Source of the DNA: a virus
Virus record (IMG/VR): IMGVR_UViG_3300047476_001238
Location: 79,712-137,196 of that record
Reading direction: 5' to 3' (one strand)
DNA length: 57,485 bases
The notes under the pieces: model-generated
Told to the model about the DNA's origin: nothing
Seen by the model: only the letters and a program-made list of their open reading frames with translations
Database searches by the model: none
Translations under genes and position numbers: made by a program
Part shown: piece by piece, positions 6,038 through 56,500 of the stretch
Numbering within the stretch: the stretch's first letter is position 1
How the letters are laid out: each line of letters begins with the position of its first letter

Positions 6038-7480
6038 TTAGAATTTTAAGCCAGCTAGACGACGTAAAAAAGACAAATCTTCTGATACTACCGGTTCATC
6101 CATTGTGGTTGCACCAGTGGGCTGCGGCTGCGGTGTAGGCTGTTGTGGAGCCGGCTGTGTATTGGCATTTTGTTGCTGCATTATCTGCATAAACTGGTTA
6201 GCCAATGCGTTTTCTCCATTTGATGCTAACCAACCAATAATGGTTCTTCTAGCATCTGCATCCGGTCCTTGTACCTTACTTAATTTTATCAAGGCTTGAT
6301 TTAAATCTTCGCTATTAAGAAAATTGATATTTGATAGAGCTGCAATAGCGTCAGAAGCGTCAATACCAACTGCAATTGGAGTTTGCATTAGATCGCTTAG
6401 ATCTTGTTCATCTCTGTCATCGGTGTCGTCGGTCCAGGTCTGTTCTGTAATGTCGTTGGCCCAAGACTCAAATTCCACAGTCATTGGGGTGTCCATTTTT
6501 TGTTTATTTTTGTAGGCGCGATACACATAAGGCAATGCCTCGTTGAATCTGTCATCGTAAATTTTCTTAACAAAACGTTCGCGCAATGAATCAACGTCAA
6601 CTTCATCTAGTTCCTGCGATTGACCACACATATTCATTAACAATTCGTGTCCTTTGCGACCTTGTAAACGCTTTAAATTGTTTTTGACTTCGTTGTAGCG
6701 ATGTATAGCAGATTCAACCATGCCACTTGTTTCTGCGTCCTCAAATGTACGATTACGCATTGAACGCACAAAGTGTTTCATGCTGGCCATTTCCTTGACC
6801 ATTTCATTGATTAATGCTGCGCCTTCGTCATCCATGCGTCCTTCGTGGCGTAAATGATTGGCTATAGCTCTAGCGCCATGCAAGTTTGTATGGGGCAATA
6901 AGAATCTTTCTCCTAATGGAGTTTCTACGAACACATGCTCAATCTGACGTCCACGAGCACCGTGGCGTTCTGGATCAATTTGATCCTTGTGTTTAATTAT
7001 TAGCTTGTGTGTTCCAACATCACCGTAGCTGACTCTGCGGTTGTTTCCATGTCCGTACAATTTGCTTTCTGCTATAGCCAGCTCTTCTTTGTCGTATGTG
7101 GCATCAGATACACTTTGCTGTTTGATGTCTTTGAGATCTAAATTGCTACGATTGATATCTCTTACATCAAACGATAACATGTTGCGTCGTGCAAATTCTC
7201 TCAGGCCGCGAAGAAATCTATACCATTCTGTTTCTTGCTCTTCATCTAAAGCATTGGTAATGTTTGATCCAAAATAAACTTTGATGCTGTCTTCGTCAAT
7301 TAAACTGACAGTGACATTACCAAAGTTTTCTCCGCTTTCGCTGATATAATCAAAATTAAAAAAACGGGCTTGTTCGGGATCGGTGACTCGTTGAGCGTTT
7401 TCGTCACCAATATTGACGTGGTCAAAACGGGCACGTATTTTATCAAATAAAGCAGCTGAAATTTTGTTTAGTTCTCGCAT
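6038..7480 (-). CDS. Conserved-looking phage protein of unknown function with C-terminal RRLAGL motif
   Basis: This 480-residue, mostly hydrophilic protein is not recognised. The N-terminal half looks globular (alternating strands such as FGNVTVSLIDEDSIKVYFG, then KLIIKHK and GERFLLPHTNLHG). The middle is helical and charged. Near the C-terminus lies a Gln/Pro-rich stretch followed by SFLRRLAGLKF at the very end. That terminal motif resembles the C-terminus of the gp22 scaffold and segments in several internal-protein candidates in this window, which suggests a link to the prohead core. It is the first gene after large terminase, starting 17 nt after its stop. A GATAAATA late-promoter-like octamer lies 8 nt upstream of the ATG. 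Confidence 0.7.
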   Translation of the reverse strand: MRELNKISAALFDKIRARFDHVNIGDENAQRVTDPEQARFFNFDYISESGENFGNVTVSLIDEDSIKVYFGSNITNALDEEQETEWYRFLRGLREFARRNMLSFDVRDINRSNLDLKDIKQQSVSDATYDKEELAIAESKLYGHGNNRRVSYGDVGTHKLIIKHKDQIDPERHGARGRQIEHVFVETPLGERFLLPHTNLHGARAIANHLRHEGRMDDEGAALINEMVKEMASMKHFVRSMRNRTFEDAETSGMVESAIHRYNEVKNNLKRLQGRKGHELLMNMCGQSQELDEVDVDSLRERFVKKIYDDRFNEALPYVYRAYKNKQKMDTPMTVEFESWANDITEQTWTDDTDDRDEQDLSDLMQTPIAVGIDASDAIAALSNINFLNSEDLNQALIKLSKVQGPDADARRTIIGWLASNGENALANQFMQIMQQQNANTQPAPQQPTPQPQPTGATTMDEPVVSEDLSFLRRLAGLKF

Positions 7481-7496: not shown

Positions 7497-9059
7497 TTAA
7501 ATCATTATAAAGGGCATAGGCGCTATATAGTCATCAATGCTGTCTTTTAGCTTTTCATCCAGTTCCGAATCATAGCTTTGCAAGCCCTGCACCATTCTGA
7601 GTACCAGCAGGGTTGAAGTCACCAAATCGTCGGTTTCGCCAATTTTTGCAGCAAATCCAGGTCCATTTGCAACAAAAGTCTTTAGCTCACTGATTAAATT
7701 TTTGCTTGAAATTGTCATCTTTTTATTTTCAATGAGATTCTTGAGTTTGGCGCAAACTGCAATTTTGGTTTTATTGGTTGTAGTAAATCCTTTGCGATGT
7801 ATTCTAGCCTGACCTACTTTGACTGGCTGACTTAGGAATGTTCCTTTGATATTTTCTTCTCCTATTTCGTTGATAACAACCAGTGCCGCTTCGCCCAGGG
7901 TATTATTTTCAACGCTGTAGTAGATGTCGTTTTGTGTCCCAATCGAATCATACAAGTATTCGCATATTTCTTTAAGAATAGCAATTTGTCGTTGAATTGG
8001 GGTTTTGTTGTGCTGCCATTCACCAATTTGAATCATTGTGGGTAATTCAAACACTTGTATAGCAGCAGGGTCGCCACCGGTGCCCAAGCTTGGGTCCAGC
8101 CCAAGCACATAAGTTTTGCCACGTTGTGGTTTTTGATACCAACGTACTTGGCCTTGTCGTTCTATTGGCTCGCGTCCTTCAAGTTCGGCAAGAGTAGATG
8201 CATTAATTAGTGTTTCATCGTAAATCAAAAACTCACATCCGTGTTCACGTCTGAAACGCTCTTCGCCAATACGGCCAATTTCTTCAGATTTCCATTTCTC
8301 ATCACGATCTGGGTGTTCGTCCCAGCGAGCGCGGTATGCTTTGAATCCGTTTATGCCTATTGCTGTTGGATTCCCGAATTCGTCCGTACACTTGTTGGCC
8401 TGTTTCCATATTGTAGCAAATTGGTCTTCGTCACTGTTTGGCGTTGATGTAATAATTGCTTTACCGCCAGTGCTCAGTGTAGGTGATATGGAAGTCCAAA
8501 ACTCTTTGGCTATAGTGGGGCGCACAAACGCAAATTCGTCACAGTATAGTAGTGTAATACTCATACCTCGTCCGGTTGTTTCTGTTGTTGTTTGTGCAAC
8601 AATACGCGAACCATTTTCAAAATCTATACTGCCTTTGTTATAACTGGTGACACCGGCTCTAATAAAATCCGGACACAGTTCGTATGCATAACGCACACGT
8701 TGCATAATCTCTTGGGCGCCAGTATATTTGTGTGCTGCAATCAAGATTGTACTATCTGGTTTAAACATTGCATACCAAAGCAAGTATCCTGCTGCCGACG
8801 TAGACTTACCGGTCTGTCGAGGCATGAGACTGATACTGAATCTATTGTGATGATAAGTATCTATTAGCTTTACTTGATATTCAAACGGGTGATATAACAT
8901 TTTCCCTTTAACGGGATGTTGTATATAAAAATAATTGTCCATAAAATATTGCGGACCGTCAACTGGATCAGCACACCTTGCGAATTCCAGAATCTGGTCC
9001 TCGGTCATGTTGACTTTTTGATACGGACTCTTTATAATACTATTTGCATCGTTTTTCAT
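7497..9059 (-). CDS. 17: Terminase large subunit (gp17-like packaging ATPase/nuclease)
   Basis: This 520-residue protein has the two-domain large terminase layout. The N-terminal ATPase has Walker A MPRQTGKS (79-86), Walker B LLYCDE (170-175) and a coupling motif STPN near 205. The C-terminal RNase H-like nuclease has its first catalytic Asp in LGLDPSLG (D322) and a late acidic motif in GETDDLV. It docks at the portal, pumps DNA into the prohead and cuts concatemers. The ATG at 9059 is preferred over one at 9095 because the longer form would overlap the divergent HNH gene and adds no family-like sequence. The probable small subunit is some 10 kb away at 19613, unlike T4, where genes 16 and 17 are adjacent. 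Confidence 0.95.
   Translation of the reverse strand: MKNDANSIIKSPYQKVNMTEDQILEFARCADPVDGPQYFMDNYFYIQHPVKGKMLYHPFEYQVKLIDTYHHNRFSISLMPRQTGKSTSAAGYLLWYAMFKPDSTILIAAHKYTGAQEIMQRVRYAYELCPDFIRAGVTSYNKGSIDFENGSRIVAQTTTETTGRGMSITLLYCDEFAFVRPTIAKEFWTSISPTLSTGGKAIITSTPNSDEDQFATIWKQANKCTDEFGNPTAIGINGFKAYRARWDEHPDRDEKWKSEEIGRIGEERFRREHGCEFLIYDETLINASTLAELEGREPIERQGQVRWYQKPQRGKTYVLGLDPSLGTGGDPAAIQVFELPTMIQIGEWQHNKTPIQRQIAILKEICEYLYDSIGTQNDIYYSVENNTLGEAALVVINEIGEENIKGTFLSQPVKVGQARIHRKGFTTTNKTKIAVCAKLKNLIENKKMTISSKNLISELKTFVANGPGFAAKIGETDDLVTSTLLVLRMVQGLQSYDSELDEKLKDSIDDYIAPMPFIMI
9010..9038 (+). promoter_or_regulatory. Sigma70-type promoter for HNH endonuclease gene
   Basis: TTGACT (9010-9015), a 17-nt spacer and TATAAT (9033-9038) form a near-consensus promoter pointing at the HNH gene. 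The predicted start near 9045 leaves a 25-nt leader. It lies inside the first codons of the oppositely oriented terminase gene. Confidence 0.6.
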
Positions 9060-9069
9060 AATAATACTT

Positions 9070-9597
9070 ATGAGCCACACTTTACTTTTAAACAAAGATT
9101 ATACACCAATTAGCGTACTTCCGCTAAGTGTTATCCATTGGCAACATGCTGTTAAGCTTATGTTTTTGGGACGTATTCAGGTTATCGAAACTTACCCAGA
9201 CTGGATGATCCACAGCGAAAAACTATCTATTAATGTACCCAGTGTGGCTATTACTCGAGAGTACTTTAATTTCAAACGCAAAGTAAACTTTACTCGACAT
9301 AATATGTACTTGCGTGATTTGTACCAGTGCCAATACTGCGAAGATACGTTCGACTTTAAGGACTTAACCATCGACCATGTTATTCCTGTAAGCCACGGTG
9401 GCGGTACTACGTGGGAAAATTGTGTGACTAGTTGCAAACCTTGCAACTTTAAAAAAGCAGATAAGTTAATGCGTCCTATACGCAAGCCGTATCGCCCGGA
9501 TTATTGGGCATTGGCTGCTGCTTGGAAGAACAGTCCGTTTAGAGTTAAGGATCCTAAGTGGAATCAGTATTTGGGTAGAGATGCAGAAGCTGCTTAA
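9070..9597 (+). CDS. HNH endonuclease
   Basis: This 175-residue protein has a clear HNH (His-Me finger) nuclease core. C87xxC90 is followed by the DH pair of IDHVIPVSHGG (102-103), the central Asn of WENC (N117) and C122xxC125N126. The four cysteines probably hold a structural zinc. The N-terminal 80 residues are a family-typical beta-rich region. It sits antiparallel to all its neighbours, between the terminase gene and the micro-gene cluster, and has its own sigma70-type promoter. This placement is typical of a free-standing homing-type endonuclease, though a packaging role next to terminase is also possible. Its TAA overlaps the converging stop of the 69-residue gene in a TTAA. No clear Shine-Dalgarno is visible. 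Confidence 0.88.
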   Translation: MSHTLLLNKDYTPISVLPLSVIHWQHAVKLMFLGRIQVIETYPDWMIHSEKLSINVPSVAITREYFNFKRKVNFTRHNMYLRDLYQCQYCEDTFDFKDLTIDHVIPVSHGGGTTWENCVTSCKPCNFKKADKLMRPIRKPYRPDYWALAAAWKNSPFRVKDPKWNQYLGRDAEAA

Positions 9598-9803
9598 ATG
9601 GGCCGTTCGCCTGTTAGATAAGGCTTACTGAACCACAATTTAAACCACTCTTCAGTCCCAGGGCGAATATCATGTCGTTTCATGAGTTCGCCTTTTTCAT
9701 TTCCTGTGACTGATATGTTGCTACCAGCAAAGCCTTTGTATTCCTGCATTACTGCACGATTACCAATGCCTGCAAGTACCTTTAGTTGTTCAATATCGTT
9801 CAT
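9594..9803 (-). CDS. Small protein of unknown function with N-terminal LAGI motif
   Basis: This 69-residue protein is not recognised. It begins IEQLKVLAGIGNRA, a variant of the hxxhxxLAG[LI] motif seen in several putative head-core proteins of this window. The rest is a charged region ending in a WFKLWFSKPYLTG segment. The start overlaps the preceding 49-residue membrane-protein gene by 14 nt. The gene is the last link in a chain of overlapping small genes that starts at the secreted nuclease-like gene. The stop converges with that of the HNH gene. Confidence 0.6.
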   Translation of the reverse strand: MNDIEQLKVLAGIGNRAVMQEYKGFAGSNISVTGNEKGELMKRHDIRPGTEEWFKLWFSKPYLTGERPI

Positions 9804-10103: not shown

Positions 10104-10165
10104 CAGTGTTCGCCATATGGCACCACCGGAAGATCATTTTCTGAATCTTGGTTTTCGTTGCCCAT
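10103..10165 (-). CDS. 20-codon micro-gene between nuclease-like gene and small-protein chain
   Basis: An ATG overlapping the nuclease-like gene's stop (TAATG) opens a 20-codon acidic frame. It ends in TGA overlapping the next ATG (TGATG). It may encode a genuine micropeptide or simply carry terminating ribosomes to the next gene. Confidence 0.35.
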   Translation of the reverse strand: MGNENQDSENDLPVVPYGEH

Positions 10166-10599
10166 TACTGGCACCACGATTGCTTGGCTTCGCCGTAGTA
10201 TTCTCTAGCAAATCCATTGGCAATCAATTGAGCACGTAAGCTTTGTCCATCTAGTATCATGTCGCCTAGTACACGGCCACCAAACTTGTCCCAACCGTAA
10301 AGGATCACTTGACGCTTGACTGACTTGGCTACTGCATTCTTGGTAAATGCAGTTGCAGCTTCACCTCGCTGTGCTTCGCTAGCACATTGAGCACGATGTC
10401 CTTTTTCTGGTGTATCAACTCCATACACACGAACAGCCAATTCAGGCTTGAGTGGCTGTGGTAAAAATGGTGCTGCAATAACAACTGTGTCGCCGTCATT
10501 GACACGAACAATTTGTGCATCATATGTGACGCCTTGTGGTGCCTTTTGTGCAAATGCTAAAGCAGGTGCTAGTAATAGAATTGCGAATAGTTTTTTCAT
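10165..10599 (-). CDS. Secreted SNase-family nuclease (thermonuclease-like)
   Basis: This 144-residue protein starts with a typical signal peptide (MKKLFAILLLAPALAFA, likely cleavage after AFA). The mature part is a staphylococcal-nuclease fold. NDGDTV supplies the calcium-binding Asp residues. RVYGVDTPE gives R57, D62 and E65, matching SNase R35, D40 and E43. GGRVLGD provides the second catalytic Arg. All catalytic residues are present, so it should be an active calcium-dependent nuclease exported to the periplasm. A role in degrading competing DNA or host DNA released at lysis is possible. Its stop overlaps the ATG of a 20-codon frame, which starts a chain of overlapping small genes. Confidence 0.85.
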   Translation of the reverse strand: MKKLFAILLLAPALAFAQKAPQGVTYDAQIVRVNDGDTVVIAAPFLPQPLKPELAVRVYGVDTPEKGHRAQCASEAQRGEAATAFTKNAVAKSVKRQVILYGWDKFGGRVLGDMILDGQSLRAQLIANGFAREYYGEAKQSWCQ

Positions 10600-10611: not shown

Positions 10612-11043
10612 TTAAGATTTTGTGTAAGTTGTTACATAATTGCCGCCGGGTTTGATGTCTTTTCCTACTCCACCAAATCCAATGCCTTTATCCATTCTAA
10701 CTGTGTGTGTCTGTCCAGGAGTACCTAATGCTCCTGTTGTATCCTTGTATGCAGCAGAGACACTTGTGGTACCTCCCATTTGCCCCTTATTATAAGCCGG
10801 GGTGCTTTTTTGAGCTGAAAGATCTACACCATTTATATTTGTTTTTACTCCAACAGTTGATGCACCACCAGGATTGAAATCTCGAGTTGCTGTTAATTGC
10901 GTAGTATCATCTACATCAAGTTGTCCAGTAAATGTTTTAGTAGGTTTGTCTGCTGTAAATTTTGCATTGCCAAGATCTAAAGTGGCAGAGTCTTGTTCAT
11001 CAAGAATATCTAAATATCGTCTAAAGAATCTTGGGTCAGACAT
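10612..11043 (-). CDS. Putative internal head protein with CTS-like N-terminus (143 aa)
   Basis: The start at the ATG overlapping the upstream stop (TAATG, 11043) gives MSDPRFFRRYLDILDEQ. That is an amphipathic N-terminal tag ending in LDE, which fits T4 gp21 cleavage specificity ([L/I]xE). The remainder is rich in Gly, Thr, Asp and Lys with little hydrophobic core, so it is probably disordered or beta-repeat-like. The protein is not recognised beyond this. It is the last gene of the 19.6-10.6 kb cassette, several of whose products carry similar tags. An AGGAG precedes the ATG. Confidence 0.6.
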   Translation of the reverse strand: MSDPRFFRRYLDILDEQDSATLDLGNAKFTADKPTKTFTGQLDVDDTTQLTATRDFNPGGASTVGVKTNINGVDLSAQKSTPAYNKGQMGGTTSVSAAYKDTTGALGTPGQTHTVRMDKGIGFGGVGKDIKPGGNYVTTYTKS

Positions 11044-12071
11044 TACCAACTCCTACACGACCAATAACGTGCCTTCCATCTTGGTCCCGGATTAGCGCAG
11101 TTGTGTCTTGCTCTGAAACTCTTACGACGTTTAGGGTTTGACTTTTTGATACGCATGTTAGGATCACCAAATTCAACTTTAACAATGTTGCCGTTTGGCT
11201 TTCTTACATACACTTTGGATTTCTTAACATCACCAGGCATTTTCTTGCCCAGTGGAACTGTGCGGCCTCTGTACTTTGCTTCATTGGTAGTGGCACGAAA
11301 TTGTGCCATTGGGCCTTGTCCACCTTTTTCAGTGTAGTCCATCCAAGGCTTACTTACATCCTGCTGAAACTCTTGTTCGTAGCTGTCGTCTTTCATTTTA
11401 TTGATAAGATAATCGCCGGCACCAGTTTTGGGATCTCTAGCAAAGGTGCGAGAAGTGTACTCTTGACTGAATTTTGGTTCACCTTTACTAGAATTAGAAT
11501 ATGTGGCTCTTTGATCTGCATAGGCCGATACCAGAGTTTTATTGTCTTTAGGAACCACTGGGCTTGTTGACTTATAGCTGTCAGATTTGGGATCGTACTT
11601 GTTTACACCACCGTGCTTGTCAGTCCAGCTATCTTGCCCCCACTTGAAATCATCTTCATGAACCATATAATCCTTGGGATCTTTTTTTGCTTTTGGTTCA
11701 GTTAACGGACTTGTATCAACAGGATTTCTTGTAGGCTTCTTTGGAGCAGTTGCTCCTGTATCTTTGGACATGTACTTGTTTTCAAGATCGTCATCGGCGC
11801 TTTTATCTTTGTTTACATTTGAATGTATTGGGCTTATAGTTTGAGTAGCAGGGGGCATGTTTGTTGGATTCTCTGTAATGTATCCCGCATGCGTTAAAAT
11901 TTTCATCATTGTGTCGTCTGCTTCTAATACTATTCCATCTTCAAATACATCAACAATGTATGTTTCAATCAAAGTTTCGTCTCTAGCGATTTCTAATTCA
12001 AACACATCACCTACCGCAGGATTACCTTCAGTTAATTCTGCTTCGGTTAGATAGTCACGAAAACTTTTCAT
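11043..12071 (-). CDS. Putative internal head protein with CTS-like tag and Cys/Trp-rich C-terminus
   Basis: This gives a 342-residue protein when started at the ATG 1 nt after the upstream stop. The N-terminus MKSFRDYLTEAELTEG closely resembles the T4 internal-protein capsid-targeting sequence (MKTYQEFIAEA) and contains two LxE-type sites. A small globular segment follows (VGDVFELEIARDETL...VLEADD). A long disordered Lys/Asp/Ser-rich middle comes next. The basic C-terminus has RRKSFRARHNC, NPGP, KARYW and SC, whose His and two Cys could bind metal. The start at 12131 is rejected because it lies within the upstream gene and lacks the tag. The gene is tightly packed between neighbours of the same cassette. 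Confidence 0.65.
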   Translation of the reverse strand: MKSFRDYLTEAELTEGNPAVGDVFELEIARDETLIETYIVDVFEDGIVLEADDTMMKILTHAGYITENPTNMPPATQTISPIHSNVNKDKSADDDLENKYMSKDTGATAPKKPTRNPVDTSPLTEPKAKKDPKDYMVHEDDFKWGQDSWTDKHGGVNKYDPKSDSYKSTSPVVPKDNKTLVSAYADQRATYSNSSKGEPKFSQEYTSRTFARDPKTGAGDYLINKMKDDSYEQEFQQDVSKPWMDYTEKGGQGPMAQFRATTNEAKYRGRTVPLGKKMPGDVKKSKVYVRKPNGNIVKVEFGDPNMRIKKSNPKRRKSFRARHNCANPGPRWKARYWSCRSW

Positions 12072-12072
12072 A

Positions 12073-14430
12073 TCACTTGCCTTTCCACTGCTGAGGTGGT
12101 AATACTTTAATTGGCTCTCCATCTTTACCAACTACTTCGCCTTTGTCGGCTTGGAGTCTATTTAAGTGTGTATCATATCGATCATTGACTTGTTTTTCGT
12201 ACTCGGTACCTTTGTACTGCTTACGCATGGCGTCAAGATCACGTAATTGTTGACTGGTTCTTAGCTTGCTGGCCTCTGTACCTACTAGGTCACCAACAAA
12301 GTTTGAAACGTCGTCCCATCCTTCGTCAACTTCTTTTTCATCACCGCTACCAATTGTGACATGGCGTGGGCCACCAACACGATCATCCGAGGAGTGAGTT
12401 GTTAAAGGAAGTTTGGATTGATCTGGGGCGCCAGATTTTTTTGGTGGCGGAAATGTTGCACGTACTCTGCCTGTTTCTGGATCTTTTTTGATTTCAGGAT
12501 CATCTTTGTTGTCCCTAATCAAGATACTTTCCAACATGGCATCCAAATCTGCATCAAGCGTACTTTCGGCCATTGGATTGTCCCCCAACTTTGGCTTGTC
12601 TGCATATTGACGCTTTTCTCTATTTAGATCATTGCCTTGACGAATAATGCTGTCCACGGTTTGATATTCTTCTTCTGGAGTGTTTTCGTATTCTGTTTCT
12701 CTATCAGCTTCCATCATTTCTTCATCGCCGTCGGACATGACAACCATTGCTGGGCGATCGCTACTGTTCATACCTGCTAGTTTGAGCATTGATAATAGTT
12801 CGTCTGCTTTGTCGCCTTGAGCTGAGATGTTTACACTCTTTGTGCCGTTGCTGCTCATATTGGTGCTTACATTCATAGTGTCATGACTATTCATACCCAT
12901 GTCGCCGCATTCGTCTAATTTGCTTTCACTTAGTCCAGCCAAGCGAGCCAATTCACTTAAAGTATTATCCACAACTGGCTGTTCGGTCACAACAGACTCG
13001 CTCATGCTGCTGCCCATATCTGCATAGAAACGCTCCTCAACCCACTGATACGGATCACCTTCGCGACCTTTAGCAACGCCGTATGGCATTTCGCCTGTAT
13101 CAAGATAGTAATCGTACAGTGCATCGTATAGATTTTCTGCCATAAATCCATTGTTCATGAAATTTTTGACTTCATGTTTGAATCTATTAGCAATATGCTT
13201 TAGTGCATTGCCACCTTCATCTAACATAACATCTTCGTTGACTTTCTTAGGAAGGCCTTTGTGTTTGGTGCTTGCGAAATCTTTTGTGTCTTTTTTGCTC
13301 ATAGTTTTAGCTGCTTTCTTTAATTCAGGACTAGCGCCTTTGACCTTTTCACCTTTTTGCATAGCATGTACCATGCCCATAAATTTTTGTTGCTGTTTAC
13401 TAACAGCTTTTTCGTTTAATGCAAGTCCACTTAGGCGCATCATTTCTTCTAATTCCATGTTATCTTGTTCCTCTAATTCATCTTCGGCGAATTGTCCATA
13501 GCCACCAGCGGGTTTAGTAGCGGTAGTTGTAGCAGGTTCTGGGGCAGCATTCAGTGCTGCTGTGGCCGCTTGATCTGAAGTTTGTGTTGGTGCTGATTTA
13601 CTTGCCATTGCGGTAGCGGCATTATTTGTTGGCTGATTACCACCAAACATTCCTTTAACTTTGTCTCCTACTGCACTAGCAAAATCTCCAAAGCTGGCAT
13701 AGCTTTTTGTTGCTTGATTTTGTTGTCCATAAAGACCGCCAGCTTTTTGATCTGCTGCAATTTTGTCTGACGTTCTAGACACTACATTAGTGGTTCCTGC
13801 AACAGGTTGATAATCGCTTTTAGAGGCAGTAGCGGTGTTGGTCGCTGCTGGTGCAGTCTGCGGATTTACTTGTGCAACTGGCTTGTATGCACCGCTATTT
13901 ACTTGTGCTTGCAGTCTATCTCGTGCGGCAGTTGCTTCTTGATCTACGTTGGCATCTGCTGCTGGTGCTGTATTAAGTGCTGCTGTAGCAGTCTGGTCCG
14001 AGGTTTGTGTTGGTGCAGACTTACTTGCCATAGCTGCTGCGCCTCTTGTGTCAGTTGCTGGATTGTCAACTACTTCTTCGCCAGCATCTAATGATTGATC
14101 TGCTGGCACTGTTTGTGCCGCTTGATTGGTATCTGTAGCTGCAGGTTTTGCTACTCCGGCAACGTTGATATCTGTAGCAGCGCGATCTGAGATAGTTGGT
14201 GCAACAGCCGCTGTACCGGCTGGCTGCGGTTGGCTGAATTTCTTTGCTAGTGCCATGTTAGCTGCGGCTGTTCCGGCTGTAAACCCTGGACCTAGTGCTG
14301 CATCAACTTTGGCTTGATTCAATCTATCTGCTTTGTTCATGAACTGGCCGCCGCTTGTTTGTGCAAGTTTTGTCCCAGTTGCGCCTTGTGCCGGCGCTTC
14401 GAATAAGTCTATTAAGTCTCGCATGTTCAT
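12073..14430 (-). CDS. Large low-complexity protein with DUF3008-like segment and three LAGL-type motifs
   Basis: This 785-residue, mostly disordered protein is Ala/Thr/Gln-rich in its first 330 residues and opens MNMRDLIDLFEAP, a CTS-like amphipathic tag. AMASKSAPTQTSDQ is duplicated about 145 residues apart. Around residues 340-397 lies a KAVSKQQQKFMGMVHAMQ...FASTKHKGLP segment that matches DUF3008 (function unknown). Three copies of an hxxhxxL[AS]G[LM] motif occur: EEMMRLSGL, ELARLAGL and SMLKLAGM. A small Tyr-rich helical segment (YDALYDYYLD) may be a folded domain. A DEGWDD element near the C-terminus is shared with the 264-residue neighbour. It is probably virion-internal; no catalytic motif is visible. 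Confidence 0.65.
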   Translation of the reverse strand: MNMRDLIDLFEAPAQGATGTKLAQTSGGQFMNKADRLNQAKVDAALGPGFTAGTAAANMALAKKFSQPQPAGTAAVAPTISDRAATDINVAGVAKPAATDTNQAAQTVPADQSLDAGEEVVDNPATDTRGAAAMASKSAPTQTSDQTATAALNTAPAADANVDQEATAARDRLQAQVNSGAYKPVAQVNPQTAPAATNTATASKSDYQPVAGTTNVVSRTSDKIAADQKAGGLYGQQNQATKSYASFGDFASAVGDKVKGMFGGNQPTNNAATAMASKSAPTQTSDQAATAALNAAPEPATTTATKPAGGYGQFAEDELEEQDNMELEEMMRLSGLALNEKAVSKQQQKFMGMVHAMQKGEKVKGASPELKKAAKTMSKKDTKDFASTKHKGLPKKVNEDVMLDEGGNALKHIANRFKHEVKNFMNNGFMAENLYDALYDYYLDTGEMPYGVAKGREGDPYQWVEERFYADMGSSMSESVVTEQPVVDNTLSELARLAGLSESKLDECGDMGMNSHDTMNVSTNMSSNGTKSVNISAQGDKADELLSMLKLAGMNSSDRPAMVVMSDGDEEMMEADRETEYENTPEEEYQTVDSIIRQGNDLNREKRQYADKPKLGDNPMAESTLDADLDAMLESILIRDNKDDPEIKKDPETGRVRATFPPPKKSGAPDQSKLPLTTHSSDDRVGGPRHVTIGSGDEKEVDEGWDDVSNFVGDLVGTEASKLRTSQQLRDLDAMRKQYKGTEYEKQVNDRYDTHLNRLQADKGEVVGKDGEPIKVLPPQQWKGK

Positions 14431-14431
14431 T

Positions 14432-17400
14432 TTATTTTTTTGCCCTTCCAGCTAACCATAAAATATCTTTAAGTTCAGTATTTACCGATTCGGGAACTCG
14501 TATTGTTTCCCGATCAGCGGGCGGGCGTCGATTACCAGTAAGGGTATCAATTCCTTGATTCCATTTATCAACAAATGATTCTGGTTCTTGAGTTGATAGA
14601 TTTGGACTGATTTTTTCTAATTCTTTTCTGGCTTTTTCGTCGTCTATCTTTTTCTGTAGTTCTGCCTTGGCACGCTCAATATCTTGTTTGTCACTTGTGC
14701 CTGTTCCCCATGGCTTCCCAGTTCCAGAAACAACAGGAGTGCCGTCGGTGGAACGTAATACATCTGCGGGCTTACTACTAGCTAGACTAGCTGCAGAGGC
14801 AGAATCATCGGATGATACATCAAATCCGTGTATCCATAACTTGGCATCTCTAAGTCTTCTTTCGCGTTCCTCTGGAGATAATGCATCCATTTCTTTTCGT
14901 ATAGGATCCCACAACTCGTCGCTTTTTATTTCATCGGCGGTACGCGGTGCGGGTCTCACATCAGGATCCTGGCTTAATATTCTTTCTAGATCATCTGCAC
15001 GGCGTAATTTGGCTCTAGCACTTGCTTGGGCGTCTGCTGCTGCTTTATAACCTGCGCCAATTTTACTACCACTAGCATCTAAGTCTGCTTGTGATGGTCT
15101 GCTGACTTTTACCTTGGGAGCAACTTCATCAGCATAGTCAGTTGTGAATTGTGCTTCTTTACCAGTGACCGGATCTTTGAAAGTAAATGTTCCGCCACTG
15201 CCTTTACCAGTGTCCTGAATTTGTTTTGCTCTAGCTGCTGCAAATGCTTTTTCAAACTCTTTGCGAACATTAACTTTGGTATCTGCATCTGCCTTAGGTT
15301 CGGCATCTGCCTTTGGTTCTGACACTACCTTTGTACTTTTCTTTTCTTTCTTATCTACTGTTGCTACAGAAGCAGGTACTGCCGCAGGAGGTTCTGATTT
15401 GGCTGGAACTGTTGCTGTACTCACTCCCTTTGCAGGCTTAGCTAAGTCGGAGTCTGCTTTTGCAGATTGCGGTCCTATAGCAGGTACACTACTAGCGCGA
15501 CCAGACACAGACTGTTGCGTTGTTGTCTTTTCTGCTTTTTTGGTTGTTTTACCAGGTTCAATTACATTGCCAAAATCATCAACTGCTGGCATCTCTTTAG
15601 GTACTGGCGACGACTTTTTAGGTGTTTGTGTTTTTTCATCATTCCACCATTTTTGAAGTCTGTCGGCGATAGATCCTGGTTCTGTAGTTATAGAAATTTT
15701 AGTGTCAGTTCCTTTGTCTGAAGCTGCTTTATCCTTTGCGTAATCTTGCTTTAATTTCTCTAGCTGTTGTTTAAGTTCGCCTGTTTTCTTTCCTGCTGCT
15801 TCTGCTTGTTTAATAATGTTTTCAAGCTCTTTAACAGGATCTTTATAATTTTGTAATTGCTTATTGATTTTTGCCAATTCTGCTGCATCTGGGGCTCTTG
15901 GAGTCTTCCCGGAGCGATCGGCTTTTTCTGGCCCACCTTGATTGGATGGAAGTTCACCAGCAACTGCACTACCAATTGGTAGCATGTTAGTGATATTTTT
16001 AGCAATAGTTTTGTATCCTTTGGGATCAAGATGCAAATTCATTGGATCCTTTTTTGAGGCAGGTCCCAAATCAACTATTGGCGCTATTGTTTGTCCTTGT
16101 GTCATTGCTTGGCGCAACTGATCGCGCATTTGCTTTGTCTTGGGATTGTCAGTGGCAGTAGGTAATAAATGAACCACTTGAAGACCACGAGCTTTGGCAG
16201 CAGCAATCAGTTTGTTTACTTGACTGGTGATAACTTCTGGCTTGGCCGACGCAACATCGTTGCCTCCTCCGCTAATGGCCACAACACTACCTGGAGGAAT
16301 TTTTTCTATATTGGCCAAATGAACTTTAAACTGCTTGGGATCTAGTATACTGGCTCCACGATAGGCCATGCTTTTGTCCCACTGTTCGCCACCATAACCA
16401 GCCACACCCTGTGCTTGACTGTCGCCCACAGCATAATACCCTGGTCTTGCTGCTTTGGTGTCCCGCTTGGGTTCTGCGGTTTTTTGATCAACTCGTGCTA
16501 CTTGTGTTCCATCAATGCTGGTATCAATACCGTGAATCTGTTTAAGATCAGCAACTTGATCGTTTACCCATTTCCAACTTTTTGGTCCGTATCCTTGTTT
16601 GATTTCTGTTGCAGGTAAACTGGCCCATTGGCTTTTTAATTTTTTTACTGCATTTGTGTAGTCGCCTTTTAGTACAGAATCTAATGCACCTCGGTCGGCA
16701 ATCATTTGTATTGCAATTTTGTCTTGCGATTCCGGTCCAAAATCTTTAAGGCCTAATTTTTTAGAGTAAGGACCCCAATTGGCTCCCATAATTTGGTATT
16801 TACCGGCTGCATCACTAGGTATTGTTTTACCGCGTGATTTTAAATAAACTGTTTTGTTAGGATGCGAACTGAAGTCGTTGAATTTGCCGCCACCTACAAG
16901 TGTATTGTAATTGGTATTACCTTCTGCTCTTGCTATTAGATCCAGCATAACACGGATATTAGGATTTGTTCTAAGATCGTCTAAATCTAGTTCCTTTCGT
17001 TCCGACAGTTGAGCTTTGTAATCAAGATACTTTTCTGCTAATGTTTTTTCTTTACCCGCAGGTGCTTTGCCTTGTGGCGGCAAGTCTTTGATTGGAGATT
17101 CTGGTTCGGCTGCAGGTTTTTGAGGTGCAGGCGATGCCGGTGCCGGTTGATCTGTCGCTGGTGCAGGCGCTGGTGCTGATTGTTGCGTGTTTTGTTTATC
17201 TATAATGTCAGACAGTAATTCGCCTTCTTCGCCTTTTTTAATAATATCTTTTTCTGGTCCTCGGCGCCACCAGTCTATACCTTTTTGAACCACATCTGGT
17301 CCATAATAAAATCCGGTGCCCAGTGCCGCACCAGACCCACCCCACCGTAATCCTGTGCCTAATGCTTTTTTGCCAAACTCTTTTGCTGCACCTGTCAATG

Positions 17401-18175
17401 TTCCGCGCTCGAGTTCGCGCATCTTTAAAAGAGTGTCTAACTGTTGAGCGTGTTTGGCTGCATATTCTGGTCCCATGGCCGCTACTCTATCTGAGTAGGC
17501 CTTATCAGTCTCAAGACGTCCTCTTTTTGGTAATTCTACAGTTGTTGATGGTTCTCCGACTATTGGCGTATCGCCATCTGATTTTGGTTTCCCGCGACGA
17601 TCAATAACTTTAACTTCTTTTTCTGCTCGACGTGCTGCTTCTTCTTCTGCTCTAGCAATAGCATCGCGTTCAGCTGCGCTTAAAGGTGGCTTGGGTTCAA
17701 TACGAGGAGGAGCTTCGGGTGCACCTTTTCTAAGATTTTTAATCCAGTCCATGGCCATTGAGCCATATTTTTTAGGATTAAAAAGTATGTCTCTCAATCC
17801 GGCTTCGTCAAGCTGACCTGACTGTTCAAGACGATCTAGTTCTTCAAATCCCTCAGGTAAAAAACTAGGATCGTATTCTTGATTCTTTATTGAATCGTAA
17901 TACTCTTTACCAAGATTTACCCAGCCGCCTTTTTCTTTAGCATAATCACGCAATTGGTTTAGCGCATCAAGACCATAACTAGCCGCAGTAGCACCTCCGT
18001 GTGGTATAAAACCAATTCCAGTGGCTGCACCAGCAATGCCTGCACCAAGGTAATCGCCTTGTCCTGCTCTGATTGCAGCATCAACAAAACCAACACCCGG
18101 GGCTGACTTTTTTAAAACTTTAACAGCATCCCCTTCGTTAAGAGGCGACTGCTTGGCTATTTCATGGATTTTCAT
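14432..18175 (-). CDS. 1247-aa multidomain protein: lambda-R-like transglycosylase plus SGNH hydrolase
   Basis: The N-terminus MKIHEIAKQSPLNEG is CTS-like with an LNE|G cleavage-type site. A Gly/Ala-rich hydrophobic segment follows (about 25-75). A second Gly-rich stretch lies near 265-290. At about 405-555 there is a lambda endolysin R-like lytic transglycosylase: ARAEGNTNY (catalytic Glu near 417), VGGGKFNDFSSHP, AGKYQIMGANW and ESQDKIAIQMI. At about 578-730 there is an SGNH/GDSL hydrolase: VGDSQ, ISGGGNDV and a catalytic His in NLHLDPKGY. The last 500 residues are disordered and Lys/Ala/Asp-rich and end ILWLAGRAKK. The combination suggests a virion-borne enzyme that opens peptidoglycan and de-esterifies envelope sugars during entry. 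It overlaps its upstream neighbour by 4 nt. Confidence 0.8.
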   Translation of the reverse strand: MKIHEIAKQSPLNEGDAVKVLKKSAPGVGFVDAAIRAGQGDYLGAGIAGAATGIGFIPHGGATAASYGLDALNQLRDYAKEKGGWVNLGKEYYDSIKNQEYDPSFLPEGFEELDRLEQSGQLDEAGLRDILFNPKKYGSMAMDWIKNLRKGAPEAPPRIEPKPPLSAAERDAIARAEEEAARRAEKEVKVIDRRGKPKSDGDTPIVGEPSTTVELPKRGRLETDKAYSDRVAAMGPEYAAKHAQQLDTLLKMRELERGTLTGAAKEFGKKALGTGLRWGGSGAALGTGFYYGPDVVQKGIDWWRRGPEKDIIKKGEEGELLSDIIDKQNTQQSAPAPAPATDQPAPASPAPQKPAAEPESPIKDLPPQGKAPAGKEKTLAEKYLDYKAQLSERKELDLDDLRTNPNIRVMLDLIARAEGNTNYNTLVGGGKFNDFSSHPNKTVYLKSRGKTIPSDAAGKYQIMGANWGPYSKKLGLKDFGPESQDKIAIQMIADRGALDSVLKGDYTNAVKKLKSQWASLPATEIKQGYGPKSWKWVNDQVADLKQIHGIDTSIDGTQVARVDQKTAEPKRDTKAARPGYYAVGDSQAQGVAGYGGEQWDKSMAYRGASILDPKQFKVHLANIEKIPPGSVVAISGGGNDVASAKPEVITSQVNKLIAAAKARGLQVVHLLPTATDNPKTKQMRDQLRQAMTQGQTIAPIVDLGPASKKDPMNLHLDPKGYKTIAKNITNMLPIGSAVAGELPSNQGGPEKADRSGKTPRAPDAAELAKINKQLQNYKDPVKELENIIKQAEAAGKKTGELKQQLEKLKQDYAKDKAASDKGTDTKISITTEPGSIADRLQKWWNDEKTQTPKKSSPVPKEMPAVDDFGNVIEPGKTTKKAEKTTTQQSVSGRASSVPAIGPQSAKADSDLAKPAKGVSTATVPAKSEPPAAVPASVATVDKKEKKSTKVVSEPKADAEPKADADTKVNVRKEFEKAFAAARAKQIQDTGKGSGGTFTFKDPVTGKEAQFTTDYADEVAPKVKVSRPSQADLDASGSKIGAGYKAAADAQASARAKLRRADDLERILSQDPDVRPAPRTADEIKSDELWDPIRKEMDALSPEERERRLRDAKLWIHGFDVSSDDSASAASLASSKPADVLRSTDGTPVVSGTGKPWGTGTSDKQDIERAKAELQKKIDDEKARKELEKISPNLSTQEPESFVDKWNQGIDTLTGNRRPPADRETIRVPESVNTELKDILWLAGRAKK

Positions 18176-18966
18176 TTTGCAAATTTGTCTTTCTTGGGAC
18201 GGCCACGGCCTTTCTTTGCTACCTCACCTGTTTCATTGTCTGTGTCTGGTTCGTCTTTTTGTGCTGATCCACCATAACGTTTACCGGCTTTGATTCCACT
18301 ACCGCCGCTGGGCTGAGGGCCGCTGCGTTCTTTGGCAGCTTTCATCATGTCGTCCCATCCCTCGTGTACTGGCTCCATTTCGCCGTCGCCGTCTAGGTCA
18401 GCTTGCTTTAAACCTTGTGCTCTGGCTTTTGCAAGATTGCCTGAAAACTTATTACCTTCAGTTTTCTTGTCTTTCTTGGCGCCTGCAATTTTGTCTGCGT
18501 AAGTAATTTTGTCTTTGGGCTCAGCTAACGCTGCAAACTTCTTTTGTGCAGGTGACAGCATGTCTTCGTTGTATTCACCTTCATCCATCTTGTCGTGTTT
18601 AGCACGAATCTTGGCCATTTTTTCTTTGCTAGCACCATCGCGCCCAGCTTGTTGTAGGGCCTTCATGCCTTGCTCGCCGTATTTCTTTTTACCCAAGTAA
18701 GCTTGTAAGCCGCTTTCTTCCATCTCGCGTTCGCTCAATTGTTTTTTGTGATTGTTGTATTTCTCTGCCAACTGTTTTTCAACACGAGCAACTGCTTCGC
18801 CAATAGCACCTTTACTTTTTTCTTTGGCAGCTTTTTTCAATGGTTCTTTCTTGTCACTATCTTTATCAAGGAAATCAGGCTTGGCTTTTTTGCCTTCATT
18901 TAGGCTCTGCTTGGGTGCTTCTAGGTTTTCCATCTTCTTTAAGATGTCATAGATATTGTTGCTCAT
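18172..18966 (-). CDS. Lys-rich putative internal protein with AT-hook-like tail and EF-hand-like loop
   Basis: This 264-residue, highly charged, largely disordered protein starts with an amphipathic tag (IYDILKKMENLE) and an SLNEG site that fits gp21-type cleavage. LAEKYNNHKKQLSER is nearly repeated in the adjacent 1247-residue protein (LAEKYLDYKAQLSER). LSPAQKKFAALAEPKDKITY is a helical segment. DLDGDGEMEPVH has the spacing of an EF-hand calcium loop. The C-terminus KKGRGRPKKDK is an AT-hook-like minor-groove-binding motif. An HEGWDD element is shared with the 785-residue protein. The features suggest a DNA-associated core protein. It overlaps both neighbours by 4 nt. Confidence 0.65.
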   Translation of the reverse strand: MSNNIYDILKKMENLEAPKQSLNEGKKAKPDFLDKDSDKKEPLKKAAKEKSKGAIGEAVARVEKQLAEKYNNHKKQLSEREMEESGLQAYLGKKKYGEQGMKALQQAGRDGASKEKMAKIRAKHDKMDEGEYNEDMLSPAQKKFAALAEPKDKITYADKIAGAKKDKKTEGNKFSGNLAKARAQGLKQADLDGDGEMEPVHEGWDDMMKAAKERSGPQPSGGSGIKAGKRYGGSAQKDEPDTDNETGEVAKKGRGRPKKDKFAK

Positions 18967-19586
18967 TTGTTTTTTCCTTTAATGGGTGGTAATTTATTTT
19001 GTTGGCTTCCTACCGGGCTCTTAGTGCCTTGTGGTAGTGCATTAGTTGTTTGCGCTGGCTTGGTTCTTTCGCTGGCACGGGTTGAAGTTAATTCTGGCTC
19101 TTTAAATCCAGTTAACTTAGGTGACTGTGCGTCTAGTTCTTTTAATAAACTGTCTTTGCGTTTGTCGCCCACTAGGTCCTGTCCGCCAGGAACGTCTTGA
19201 AGTTCACTGTCCAATAGCAATGACCCTTCGTGGTCTTTGCCATATGCTTCAGCATAATCATTTTGATCGGCTTGTTGTTTACCGTAAACACAAACCCACT
19301 CAGCTTGCATGCCGGTGCGCTCTTTTAACAGTTGTGCAATTTGTACACTGGTTGTGGGGTAAGCAACTGTGGCTTCAAACTGCCAGCATTCGCAAGGTCC
19401 CCATTTTGGAAACTCTCTGTGTTCTTGTACGGGCATACTTTTTGGTGCGGTAATATCTACCAGCTCGTACGCATCAAGAGCATTCTTAATTTCTTCCATA
19501 ATATCTTTAGGATCTTGCTTTGCTACTTTGATCCTAAAAGCATAATTTGAATTTCGTTCGGCTATATAATCGTGAAGACTTTTCAT
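18963..19586 (-). CDS. Putative virion-internal protein with CTS-like tag and small globular domain
   Basis: This 207-residue protein begins MKSLHDYIAERN, very close to the T4 capsid-targeting consensus, with a YIAE cleavage-type site. Residues about 14-105 look globular with alternating strands and helices (AFRIKVAKQDPKDI, ELVDITAPK, WQFEATVAYPTTSVQIAQLL, AEWVCVY), possibly ferredoxin-like. The last 80 residues are a disordered Pro/Thr/Lys tail. Similar domains occur in cyanophage structural proteins, as far as I can recall. It is the first gene of the tagged cassette, with a CATAAATA late-promoter-like octamer 24 nt upstream. Confidence 0.6.
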   Translation of the reverse strand: MKSLHDYIAERNSNYAFRIKVAKQDPKDIMEEIKNALDAYELVDITAPKSMPVQEHREFPKWGPCECWQFEATVAYPTTSVQIAQLLKERTGMQAEWVCVYGKQQADQNDYAEAYGKDHEGSLLLDSELQDVPGGQDLVGDKRKDSLLKELDAQSPKLTGFKEPELTSTRASERTKPAQTTNALPQGTKSPVGSQQNKLPPIKGKNK

Positions 19587-27993: not shown

Positions 27994-28368
27994 TCAAACA
28001 CCATATTTGTTCTTTTTCTTAGATGCTACGGGGCTTGCTCGGTTAACTGTTGGGCCTTCTTGACTGCGTAGATCACCTTTATTGATATCTTCTACGTTGG
28101 CATCAACTGCTTTATACGCTAAATTTAACATGTCTTGTTCAAGTTGAGTGTAAGGTGCTGCCAGTTTCCATTTACCTACCCACGACTCGTCGTCTACATC
28201 GGGCATGGTTTTGCCATCTGTGCTAGCTACTGCTAGTCCTAAACGATAAAGAGTATAATCGCCATTCCATTTTTTAGCATCAGAAAATTTGTTCATGCCG
28301 CGTTGGGCCAGTCGCTGCCTATCCTTTAATACCCCGGCTTGTTCTAGCACTATTTCTTTAATTTTCAT
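27994..28368 (-). CDS. Small phage protein downstream of gp13, CTS-like N-terminus (124 aa)
   Basis: Starting at the ATG that overlaps the gp13 stop in TAATG (28368), the protein begins MKIKEIVLEQAGVLKDRQ, an amphipathic tag with a VLE cleavage-type site. The body is helical and polar (LYRLGLAVAS, LEQDMLNLAYKAVDANVED) and the C-terminus is basic (ASPVASKKKNKYGV). The longer frame from 28383 reads into gp13 and is not favoured. MKIRE-type N-termini occur on small conserved proteins of T4-like marine phages as far as I recall; function unknown. A terminator follows. Confidence 0.65.
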   Translation of the reverse strand: MKIKEIVLEQAGVLKDRQRLAQRGMNKFSDAKKWNGDYTLYRLGLAVASTDGKTMPDVDDESWVGKWKLAAPYTQLEQDMLNLAYKAVDANVEDINKGDLRSQEGPTVNRASPVASKKKNKYGV

Positions 28369-54170: not shown

Positions 54171-55367
54171 TTACTGGAACGATAGGTTCGAAACAGCAAT
54201 CTCACCTAGGTAGTCGGCAGCATTACCAAACGATGATGCTGTGTTTGTTAACTCGATATAACCATAACGAGTCATAAAGCCAACTACTGGCTCAAATGTT
54301 GCTGGATCTAGAACAACGCCAGAGCTCATTAGAGGGATATATGGGCAGTAGAACGCGGCTGCATCAGCCTCGCTTGAACCCTTATAACCAACTAGAACTG
54401 CTTGGCTATCGCTAGCATAGCTGTCAACGTAGATACGCATTGCGCCGTTTAGTGTACCAACAAACTTGGTGTTGGTAGGAGCTTCAAAGGTACCTTCAGT
54501 TGTACGTGCAAATGCCGAAGTTGTTGCGCTCTGTAGTACAGTTAGAGCTGCTGGACTTACAACTGCCCAGTTACCAGCGCCACGACGTGTACGTGAAGCG
54601 ATTAGGTTTGCTGTGCGGTTGATTAGAACAGCTAATGCAGCGTGTTCGTCACCAACGAAAGTAGCAGTACCACTTACAGCAGCTTGGTCGAATGTGAATT
54701 CGGTTGCTGCTAGACTACGTAGAGAACCTAAGATTTCTTGGTCGATCTCAACGGTGATCTCTTGTGCAAGAGCAGCCATGATTTCTGCTTCGATGTCAAG
54801 ACCATGCATGGCTTGTGCATCTTGAGCAGCTTCGAAAGTCCAGCGTGCGCTTAACTTACGAGTCTTGGCTTCAACTACTTGCTTTAAGATCTGAACGTTG
54901 ATACGATTACCAGTCACACCTTCAAGTGCGCTAGTAGCCGCTGCACGACCAGTAGTAGCAGTACCACCATTGGTTAAACCAGAGTATGCAACTGCAATCT
55001 TAAATGGACTTAATGCTTCGTCACCAGCAGTAGTACCAGTAGCGTATGGGCTAGCAGTATCTGTGGTAGTGTCAGCATAACGAACACGTAGAGTGTGAAT
55101 TTGTGCTACAGGGCCAGTCATCGGCTGAACACCAACGATTTCGTTAGCAATAACGGTTGGCATAACACGACGAATAACTGGTAGAATAACACGGTTTAGA
55201 GTTGCAACGTTTGATGCAGCAGTAGCGCCAGCAGTTGCAGTTTCCATTAGGTGCTTGCGGGTGTTTTCAAGAATAACGCCCATTGTGGTTCTTTTCGAAC
55301 CGTTTAAGCCTTCTAGCAGAGCGTCTTTTGTTTCGCCCCAACGGCTTTCTAATAGTGCTTGTGACAT
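54171..55367 (-). CDS. 23: Major capsid protein (gp23-like)
   Basis: This 398-residue protein has the HK97-fold major capsid pattern of T4 gp23: LNRVILPVIRRVMPTVIANE followed by IVGVQPMTGPVAQI, KTRKLSARWTFEAAQDAQAM, HGLDIEAEIMAALAQEITVE, ASRTRRGAGNWAVVSP, and a C-terminal VVGFMTRYGYIELTNT. It is shorter than T4 gp23 (521 residues). An N-terminal propeptide is expected; HLME|TATAG (after E42) fits gp21 cleavage and lies at the right distance from the conserved core. It follows gp22 and gp21 as in T4. AGGAG lies about 20 nt and AAGGAAAA immediately before the ATG; CCTAAATA lies 17 nt upstream. Confidence 0.95.
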   Translation of the reverse strand: MSQALLESRWGETKDALLEGLNGSKRTTMGVILENTRKHLMETATAGATAASNVATLNRVILPVIRRVMPTVIANEIVGVQPMTGPVAQIHTLRVRYADTTTDTASPYATGTTAGDEALSPFKIAVAYSGLTNGGTATTGRAAATSALEGVTGNRINVQILKQVVEAKTRKLSARWTFEAAQDAQAMHGLDIEAEIMAALAQEITVEIDQEILGSLRSLAATEFTFDQAAVSGTATFVGDEHAALAVLINRTANLIASRTRRGAGNWAVVSPAALTVLQSATTSAFARTTEGTFEAPTNTKFVGTLNGAMRIYVDSYASDSQAVLVGYKGSSEADAAAFYCPYIPLMSSGVVLDPATFEPVVGFMTRYGYIELTNTASSFGNAADYLGEIAVSNLSFQ

Positions 55368-55393: not shown

Positions 55394-56500
55394 TCACTTT
55401 AGCCCTGCTAACCGCTTGATTTCAAAAACGTTATTAGCGTTTTCTTCAACTGCGGCAGTATTAGCAGATTTATCACCAGTTATTTCTACACGGCTTTCAG
55501 CTAACATAGACTTAGCTTGTTTTGCTGGTTGAGCTGTGTTGTTTAAAACAGCTGGTAGATACTTATCGTATGCACTCTGTAATTTTACAGTCTGCACACT
55601 TTCAAGAAGTTCGCTCATAACTGTAGCTTTCTCCTTGTTTAAAGGTTTTAGCAGATTCGCTAGGATTTCTTTACGTTCTGCTGACTCTTTAATAACTTTA
55701 ATTTCTTTCTCTTTTGATTCAACAATCATTGCAGCCGAATCAGCTTGTGCTCTAGCTTCCGCTAGTGCTTGCTCTTTGGCAGCAACAACAGCTTGTAGCT
55801 TGCGAATCTCTTTGTTCTCATTTAGGTGAGTCACAGCAAATTCACTTGCAAAAGCTTCAAAGATTTGACGACCAAACATGTTCTCGCGAGCCATGTGGAT
55901 GTCTTCTTTGAGTTGAGTCATTTCTGACTCTAGTTTCTTGGTAATTGATTCCTTAACTAGTTCTGCAGAACGAGCGATGAAATTCTGTTGCAGTTCAGCA
56001 AGCTTGTCTTTAGCACCAGCGATTAGACGAACTTTTGTCTCTACCACTGCTTGCTTGTCTTGCTCAAACTCTTGAATTTCCTCTGCTAGTGATTTGATCA
56101 CAAATGATTCTAGCTTACTAACACTATTTTCATATTGCTTGCGATCTTCACGTAGTTCTTTAATTTCTTCAGCTAGTTTACCAACTAAGAAATTATTAAA
56201 CTTTTCGCTGCTTTCCATCATGTGAACTTTAAATTTCGCACGATCTTCTGCTAGAGCTTGTTTCTCTGCGGCAAACTCTTCAAGTTCGCTTTGTAGAGAT
56301 TCAGTTACCATTTTGTCTAGAGCTTCAACCATAACTTGTTTGTCATGCTGATAGCGAGTGGCAAATTCTTCACGAAGTTCTGCACGTACACTTTCGCGGG
56401 CTTCAAGAAGTTTTGCTTCCCATGCTTCGCTAATAGCTGTACGAGTATCCTCGTTTATGATGCCGCTGTCTACCAATGGTTTGATAGCATCTAATAACAT
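55394..56500 (-). CDS. 22: Prohead core scaffolding protein (gp22-like)
   Basis: This 368-residue, almost entirely helical, Glu/Lys-rich protein starts MLLDAIKPLVDSG and contains long coiled coils with repeats of about 35-40 residues (FLVGKLAEEIKELREDRKQY and FVIKSLAEEIQEFEQDKQAV). Many LxE-type sites for gp21 cleavage are present. A conserved-type segment lies late (LLKPLNKEKATVMSELLESV, YLPAVLNN). The C-terminus FEIKRLAGLK carries the LAGL motif that recurs in putative core proteins elsewhere. In T4 the scaffold fills the prohead and is degraded by gp21 during maturation. Position between gp21 and gp23 confirms the call. Confidence 0.93.
   Translation of the reverse strand: MLLDAIKPLVDSGIINEDTRTAISEAWEAKLLEARESVRAELREEFATRYQHDKQVMVEALDKMVTESLQSELEEFAAEKQALAEDRAKFKVHMMESSEKFNNFLVGKLAEEIKELREDRKQYENSVSKLESFVIKSLAEEIQEFEQDKQAVVETKVRLIAGAKDKLAELQQNFIARSAELVKESITKKLESEMTQLKEDIHMARENMFGRQIFEAFASEFAVTHLNENKEIRKLQAVVAAKEQALAEARAQADSAAMIVESKEKEIKVIKESAERKEILANLLKPLNKEKATVMSELLESVQTVKLQSAYDKYLPAVLNNTAQPAKQAKSMLAESRVEITGDKSANTAAVEENANNVFEIKRLAGLK

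Follow-up and report, generated by a model that had tools for sequence, protein, structure and literature searches.

A likely head-cargo cassette with exchangeable N-terminal tags beside gp17 of a large T4-like virus

A block of six consecutive genes beside gp17 in a large T4-like virus is likely to encode a head-cargo cassette, whose proteins would carry N-terminal capsid-targeting propeptides, be cut by a gp21-type protease and be ejected together with the DNA. The block (10612-19586, minus strand) lies between w19613/w20119 and gp17 in a window of 57,485 nucleotides that forms the right end (79,712 to 137,196) of the 137,196-base virus record IMGVR_UViG_3300047476_001238, and one further tagged gene stands at 27994-28368; genes are named w followed by their lower window coordinate. 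The source is a large T4-like (jumbo) virus of bacteria, and the gp23 of the window is 63-70% identical to that of GAP32/CBB/PA5oct/2.275.O-type jumbo phages. Tags fall into families with conserved sites, both tags and enzymes are swapped among relatives, and the genes occupying the same slot in phage PA5oct are positive by mass spectrometry (MS).

Shared N-termini on unrelated proteins

The tagged genes and gp17 are listed below (lengths in amino acids, aa; a slash marks the predicted cleavage point; LAG is the motif L-x-[R/K]-L-A-G-[L/I]).

18963-19586, minus: w18963, 207 aa; tag MKSLHDYIAE/R (19557-19586), then a ferredoxin-like domain
18172-18966, minus: w18172, 264 aa; NIYDIL-class tag with site LNE24/G (18895-18966); body basic and of low complexity
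14432-18175, minus: w14432, 1247 aa; tag MKIHEIAKQSPLNE/G (18134-18175), muralytic enzyme, LAG-type tail
12073-14430, minus: w12073, 785 aa; tag MNMRDLIDLFE/A (14398-14430), three internal LAG-type motifs
11043-12071, minus: w11043, 342 aa; tag MKSFRDYLTE/AELTE/G (12027-12071) and a C-terminal 78-aa module
10612-11043, minus: w10612, 143 aa; tag MSDPRFFRRYLDILDE/Q (10996-11043), found on three unrelated bodies
27994-28368, minus: w27994, 124 aa; tag MKIKEIVLE/Q (28342-28368), MKIxEI class
7497-9059, minus: gp17

A sequence-only reading had quoted the N-termini of these genes, and all were found on the minus strand with small corrections. The quoted IYDILKKMENLE is present, but it is preceded by MSNN and the conserved site LNE24/G falls beyond it. 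The MKSFRDYL protein starts at the ATG at 12071, a longer TTG open reading frame (ORF) being spurious, the MSDPRFF protein starts at the ATG at 11043, and MKIKEIVLEQAG belongs to the gene at 27994-28368.

Relatives were sampled through gp17 (80) and w12073 (3), ORFs were called with a simple script and grouped by body (residue 31 onwards), and short segments were compared across body-unrelated families. N-terminal 15-mers were common to 40 pairs of such families at a BLOSUM score of at least 28, some being signal peptides or short variants and many others tags, versus 4, 9, 6 and 9 pairs for control segments (residues 17-31, 32-46, 47-61 and the C-terminus); at a score of at least 40 there were 17 pairs versus 3, 1, 0 and 1. 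The expected enrichment of the motif over other genes was also seen, with six tag classes covering 154 of the 527 genes upstream of gp17 (29%) versus 8 of the 694 comprising gp17 and those downstream (1%), and an internal-methionine null of 0.7%. These counts include homologs (the upstream tagged genes span 15 body families) and the class patterns were defined on the same sequences, the independent tests being those in which profiles were applied to T4 and PA5oct, described below. A single genome gives only modest evidence, because the core motif phi-xx-phi-phi-x-E occurs 8 times in the window's own record versus 2.6 in shuffles (300 shuffles, maximum 8).

Tags are exchanged between bodies. 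For example, the w12073 body, which comprises a LAG region and a DUF3008-like segment (13240-13407; E=2.5e-4, below the cut-off), bears five tags among relatives (MNMRDLIDLFEAP, MNPKLLRQYSDILDEA, MKKLTDYIAEAE, MSKHNDIYNILGKL and MKDIIAKLAALSG), while MSDPRFFRRYLDILDEQ or a near copy begins three unrelated bodies and 27 of the 32 members of the w27994 body family are tagged. The w11043 module (11046-11279) is basic (24 K+R, 3 D+E), is 79-97% identical among relatives and usually has an xE/A(E/K)Y site directly before it, and in phage C48C1 it occurs with a tag and nothing else; its AlphaFold model (predicted local distance difference test, pLDDT, 42) was set aside. The same module is free-standing in pelagiphage Kolga, where it adjoins ribonucleotide reductase genes. 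Across the 28 sequences of the w18963 family K2 is invariant and Y7 nearly so, and the predicted structure (mean pLDDT 70.6) consists of a helix at residues 4-11, within the tag, and the ferredoxin-like domain, for which a fold search of the PDB returned generic ferredoxin-like matches only (best E=1.2e-3). Foldseek links w18963 to a 222-aa protein of Atu_ph07, and the gene in the corresponding slot of that phage has this length.

A second tagged cluster, missed by the sequence-only reading, lies outside the window in the same record (G000:C1 27170-33320, w-52541 to w-46391), with N-termini MRIREIITED, MKIRDIVSEA and MYFEFVEYLMEA (DUF6267); in PA5oct, a mostly MS-positive cluster at 153-158 kb contains weak homologs of some of these genes. 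Similar cassettes with N-termini like those of the T4 internal proteins (MQGFKTFLSEA, MLSFKQFVSEV, MMLDFKNFITEQ) occur in the marine Kyanoviridae HTVC008M (L103), C48C1 (L104) and Melnitz-2 (L106), and near these tags are DUF6267, a cytidylyltransferase-like/DUF5824 protein, a zeta-toxin-like kinase and NT5C, some of them tagged.

Likeness to the T4 signal, predicted cleavage and virion data

In the T4 record, the internal proteins IPII and IPIII begin MKTYQEFIAEA, gp22 MLKEQLIAEA, Alt MELITELFDED and gp24 MAKINELLRES. When a profile was made of MKSFxxY tags from environmental relatives and the window's own record, leaving T4 out, IPIII and IPII took first and second place (12.1) among 105 T4 ORFs from two stretches; the next ORF scored 2.9 and IPI came fourth. 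The low-entropy columns of this class after MK are 4, 7, 8 and 10, and the class pattern itself partly fixes 4 and 7, but not 8 and 10. These are the positions picked out by T4 mutagenesis, in which targeting depended mainly on 4 and 7 and processing on 8 and 10, and a protein with Asp10 was targeted but unprocessed (PMC9026906). All 14 DPRFF tags show the same spacing shifted six residues later, and the core spacing of the T4 capsid-targeting sequence (CTS), with a hydrophobic residue at 4, aromatic or hydrophobic residues at 7 and 8 and Glu at 10, is found in 76% of MKSFxxY, 48% of MKIxEI and 100% of DPRFF N-termini versus 2% of untagged ones. The NIYDIL, LAG and LFEAP classes do not show the T4-type core pattern. 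The likeness to the T4 CTS that the sequence-only reading had claimed thus holds for the profile and the matching columns, but not for the NIYDIL tag, which is not T4-like in sequence. Homology to the mature bodies of T4 IPI, IPII and IPIII was not detected for any cassette protein in PHROG or Pfam, and a search of NCBIfam gave no useful names.

Many tags also end in a putative cleavage site. Among distinct N-termini, [LI]xE occurs within residues 6-22 in 83% of the MKIxEI class (23% when shuffled), 69% of MKSFxxY (28%) and 100% of DPRFF (21%), versus 23% of untagged proteins (16%), while in the NIYDIL class the site comes later, at about residues 22-44 (89% versus 17% shuffled). Site positions are fixed at E9, E10 and E15/16, and at E11 in LFEAP, where the class pattern forces it, and the residue that follows is mostly G, A or S. 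As the sequence-only reading had proposed, the tag ends therefore appear to hold gp21-type [L/I]xE sites, at fixed positions and at frequencies well above shuffles. The corresponding protease, the gp22 core and gp23 are all encoded in the same window.

56511-57152, minus: gp21-type prohead protease (phrog_207 head maturation protease, 1.4e-56)
55394-56500, minus: gp22-like scaffold of 368 aa, ending in EIKRLAGLK (about 55397-55426) and with many gp21-type sites (8 strict versus 1.9 expected)
54171-55367, minus: gp23 major capsid protein (phrog_138, 3e-101)

The last gene of the window (57166-57485) is interrupted by the end of the record; a contig with a 100% identical gp22 (L107) continues into gp68-like and gp67-like (MLLNELYDPAKPGY) genes and one more upstream gene, which is probably the portal.

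The PA5oct record flags proteins seen by electrospray ionisation tandem mass spectrometry (ESI-MS/MS), and these were compared with a non-MS set taken from our own ORF calls rather than the record's gene list. Between the w19613 homolog and gp17, PA5oct encodes two proteins, both MS-positive, at 126689-127291 (MKSFRDYYDASKRKYSFVIKIA), a homolog of w18963, and at 127321-128817 (MFNINDILRLAGVQ); the homolog of w6038, a gene adjoining gp17, is MS-positive as well (E=1.7e-33). A loose N-terminal pattern failed to distinguish the MS set from the non-MS set (5/93 versus 25/313), and stricter patterns and profiles trained externally were used in its place. The strict MKIxEI pattern matched 7 of 93 MS proteins versus 4 of 313 others (p=0.004), and with profiles trained without the window's record the top three PA5oct scorers were all MS-positive (p=0.012). 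T4-like targeting is thus well supported, both by the sequences themselves and by a relative whose record carries proteomics annotation.

The enzyme slot, the LAG motif and alternative readings

The largest cassette protein, w14432, carries two predicted enzymatic domains.

16571-16978, minus: GH104/lambda-type lysozyme domain of w14432 (residues 400-535; phrog_90 endolysin, 4e-34)
16010-16420, minus: SGNH/GDSL-like domain of w14432 (residues 586-722)

Residues 400-535 are predicted to form a GH104 (lambda R) lysozyme by match to a solved fold (1am7, E=1e-23 over residues 419-535), with the acidic E418 just before the aligned part. The second domain matches PF13472 below the cut-off (2e-6) and PF00657 just above it (5e-5), and its GDS584 and GGND blocks are present, while the last block is NLH, not DxxH. 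In relatives the corresponding slot holds GH19 (L007, L016), SLT (L015, L023), LysM (L016) or transglycosylase (L014) domains, often with an MKIxEI-type tag and a C-terminal LAG tail, and the L015 enzyme matches phrog_342. Enzymes are thus found among the tagged proteins, as the sequence-only reading had suggested; what it missed is that, judged from these domain matches, this is one tagged position at which the predicted type of cell-wall hydrolase is exchangeable. Strict [LI]xE[AGS] sites fall at residues 14, 108 and 124 of w14432, with none in 125-1247, and the sole strict site in the 551-602 residues of the L007 (980-2683), L014 and L016 (822-2477) enzymes is at residue 9. Such few and mostly N-terminal sites, versus the 8 of gp22, favour trimmed enzymes over degraded scaffold.

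The sequence-only reading also missed a second shared motif, LAG. It forms the C-terminus of gp22, as KRLAGL(x) in 80 of 80 relatives and as RRLAGI/KRLAGI in PA5oct, Atu_ph07 and Phosso, and a LAGR form ends w14432 (DILWLAGRAKK, about 14435-14473). Within w12073 it occurs three times, and two genes beside gp17 also bear it.

9594-9803, minus: w9594, 69 aa; starts MNDIEQLKVLAGIGN, N-terminal LAG motif; conserved beside gp17 in relatives
6038-7480, minus: w6038, 480 aa; adjoins gp17, C-terminus FLRRLAGLKF; phrog_13484 virion structural protein

Upstream of gp17 there were 103 occurrences (homologs included) versus 1.15 in shuffles, and the 51 downstream were all in the w6038 body family, C-terminal in the examples listed. 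LAG is probably a second docking element common to scaffold and cargo. More tentatively, and with the odds somewhat against it, T4-like jumbo phages may use a two-part head-loading code, in which a cleaved, interchangeable CTS and a LAG motif copying the gp22 C-terminus would bring a variable set of proteins into the head, among them an exchangeable hydrolase that is delivered from there and not from the tail.

Under the head-cargo reading, each cassette protein would carry a short N-terminal capsid-targeting propeptide that binds the gp22 core during prohead formation and so brings the protein inside; cleavage after [L/I]xE by the gp21-type protease, at about residue 9 to 44 depending on tag class, would then leave the mature protein free in the head, to be ejected along with the DNA. 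Tags and bodies would recombine freely, and one slot would hold a peptidoglycan hydrolase of exchangeable type. Several observations weigh against this reading. The BLAST match of the PA5oct homolog to w18963 is weak (E=0.001), and this homolog has no cleavage glutamate (E10), so that by T4 precedent packaging without cutting is predicted for it. Taken over all PA5oct proteins, profile scores do not differ between the MS and non-MS sets (Mann-Whitney U test, p=0.95), nor is the loose core phi-xx-phi-phi-x-E enriched in the MS set (6/93 versus 13/313). Slot enzymes at L089 3450-6845 and L016 2474-4219 have no strict N-terminal site. In addition, the structural genes near gp17 in CBB show no clear tags or LAG, and the system is therefore not uniform across jumbo T4-likes.

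Most cassette proteins could instead be parts of the prohead core or scaffold, like gp67, gp68 and gp22, largely degraded by gp21 and not delivered. The low complexity of w12073 and w18172, the three gp22-like LAG motifs of w12073 and its somewhat raised number of [LI]xE sites (8 versus 3.9 expected, p=0.037) would fit this, as would the gp67-like protein of PA5oct, which bears the same tag type (MKINDIITEG), and w12073 and w18172 may indeed be core parts rather than injected cargo. As an account of most of the cassette it is unlikely, however, as w14432 has no strict site over most of its length, its slot holds varied catalytic domains, and the PA5oct record counts both of its slot proteins, but not its gp22, among the virion proteins. 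The muralytic protein of the w14432 slot might alternatively act at the tail or baseplate, with its tag serving another assembly step, given that muralytic domains of T4-like phages are usually on the tail hub (T4 gp5; a hub/tail lysozyme is annotated in PA5oct) and that tail genes, listed below, are close by. However, the gp67-like head-core protein bears a tag of the same class and T4 internal proteins bear the related class, and the C-terminal tail of w14432 resembles that of gp22, so that a tail role appears rather improbable. Finally, because the genes are adjacent and N-termini can spread by recombination at gene starts, the shared N-termini could be relics of duplication or recombination without a common targeting role. 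This we judge very unlikely, since the sharing is concentrated in the first 15 residues with control segments near background, the conserved columns match T4 functional positions, and similar tags stand on unrelated bodies in T4 and marine Kyanoviridae.

Neighbouring genes, known systems and significance

Other genes in the surroundings of the cassette are as follows.

23569, minus: sheath
22869, minus: tube
10165-10599: between the cassette and gp17, a staphylococcal-nuclease-like protein whose N-terminus resembles a signal peptide; a different signal-peptide-bearing protein fills its place in some relatives
9070-9597, opposite strand: HNH endonuclease-like gene between w9594 and gp17, resembling a protein that the PA5oct record assigns to the HNH endonuclease family

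The closest known counterpart is the CTS of T4 IPI/II/III and Alt (Mullaney and Black 1996; PMC9026906, PMC3012670), which shares the short N-terminal propeptide with key positions 4, 7, 8 and 10, the [L/I]xE site, the gp21-type protease, the gp22 core and the unrelated mature bodies. Unlike in T4, there are several tag classes here, including 16-residue and 24-residue-plus types, the cassette lies beside gp17 and includes large multidomain enzymes, tags are swapped on homologous bodies, and the LAG motif is present, which T4 gp22 does not have. The ejection proteins of the phiKZ-like phage SPN3US (PMC5694885) are similar in that a jumbo phage loads its head with proteins that a prohead protease shortens, two of these being paralogs with identical N-termini, but their propeptides are mostly longer than 100 residues, their motif is AxE or SxE and the scaffold was not identified. 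Phage P1 likewise uses an N-terminal signal, that of DarB being enough by itself to bring a reporter into the head (PMC9024508), although no shared sequence was found among the Dar proteins, whereas the tags here are shared and fall into classes. Proteins of the phrog_342 type ("internal virion protein with endolysin domain") also represent a virion-carried muralytic domain, but the enzyme described here belongs to a T4-like phage and differs in type among relatives, where a CTS-like tag often precedes it. A literature search found no paper on these tag classes, the cassette or LAG in jumbo T4-likes, though subscription journals were mostly outside its coverage and short motifs search poorly.

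The tags offer a sequence rule for picking out candidate virion cargo in raw genomes of T4-like and jumbo phages that have not been cultured, mostly among 'hypothetical' genes, and predict exact cleavage points that can be checked by proteomics. They also add candidate packaging tags to that of T4, and through the LAG tail the binding partners of scaffold and cargo become open to direct test. The enzyme slot, in turn, suggests that contractile-tailed phages may carry a muralytic enzyme in the head.

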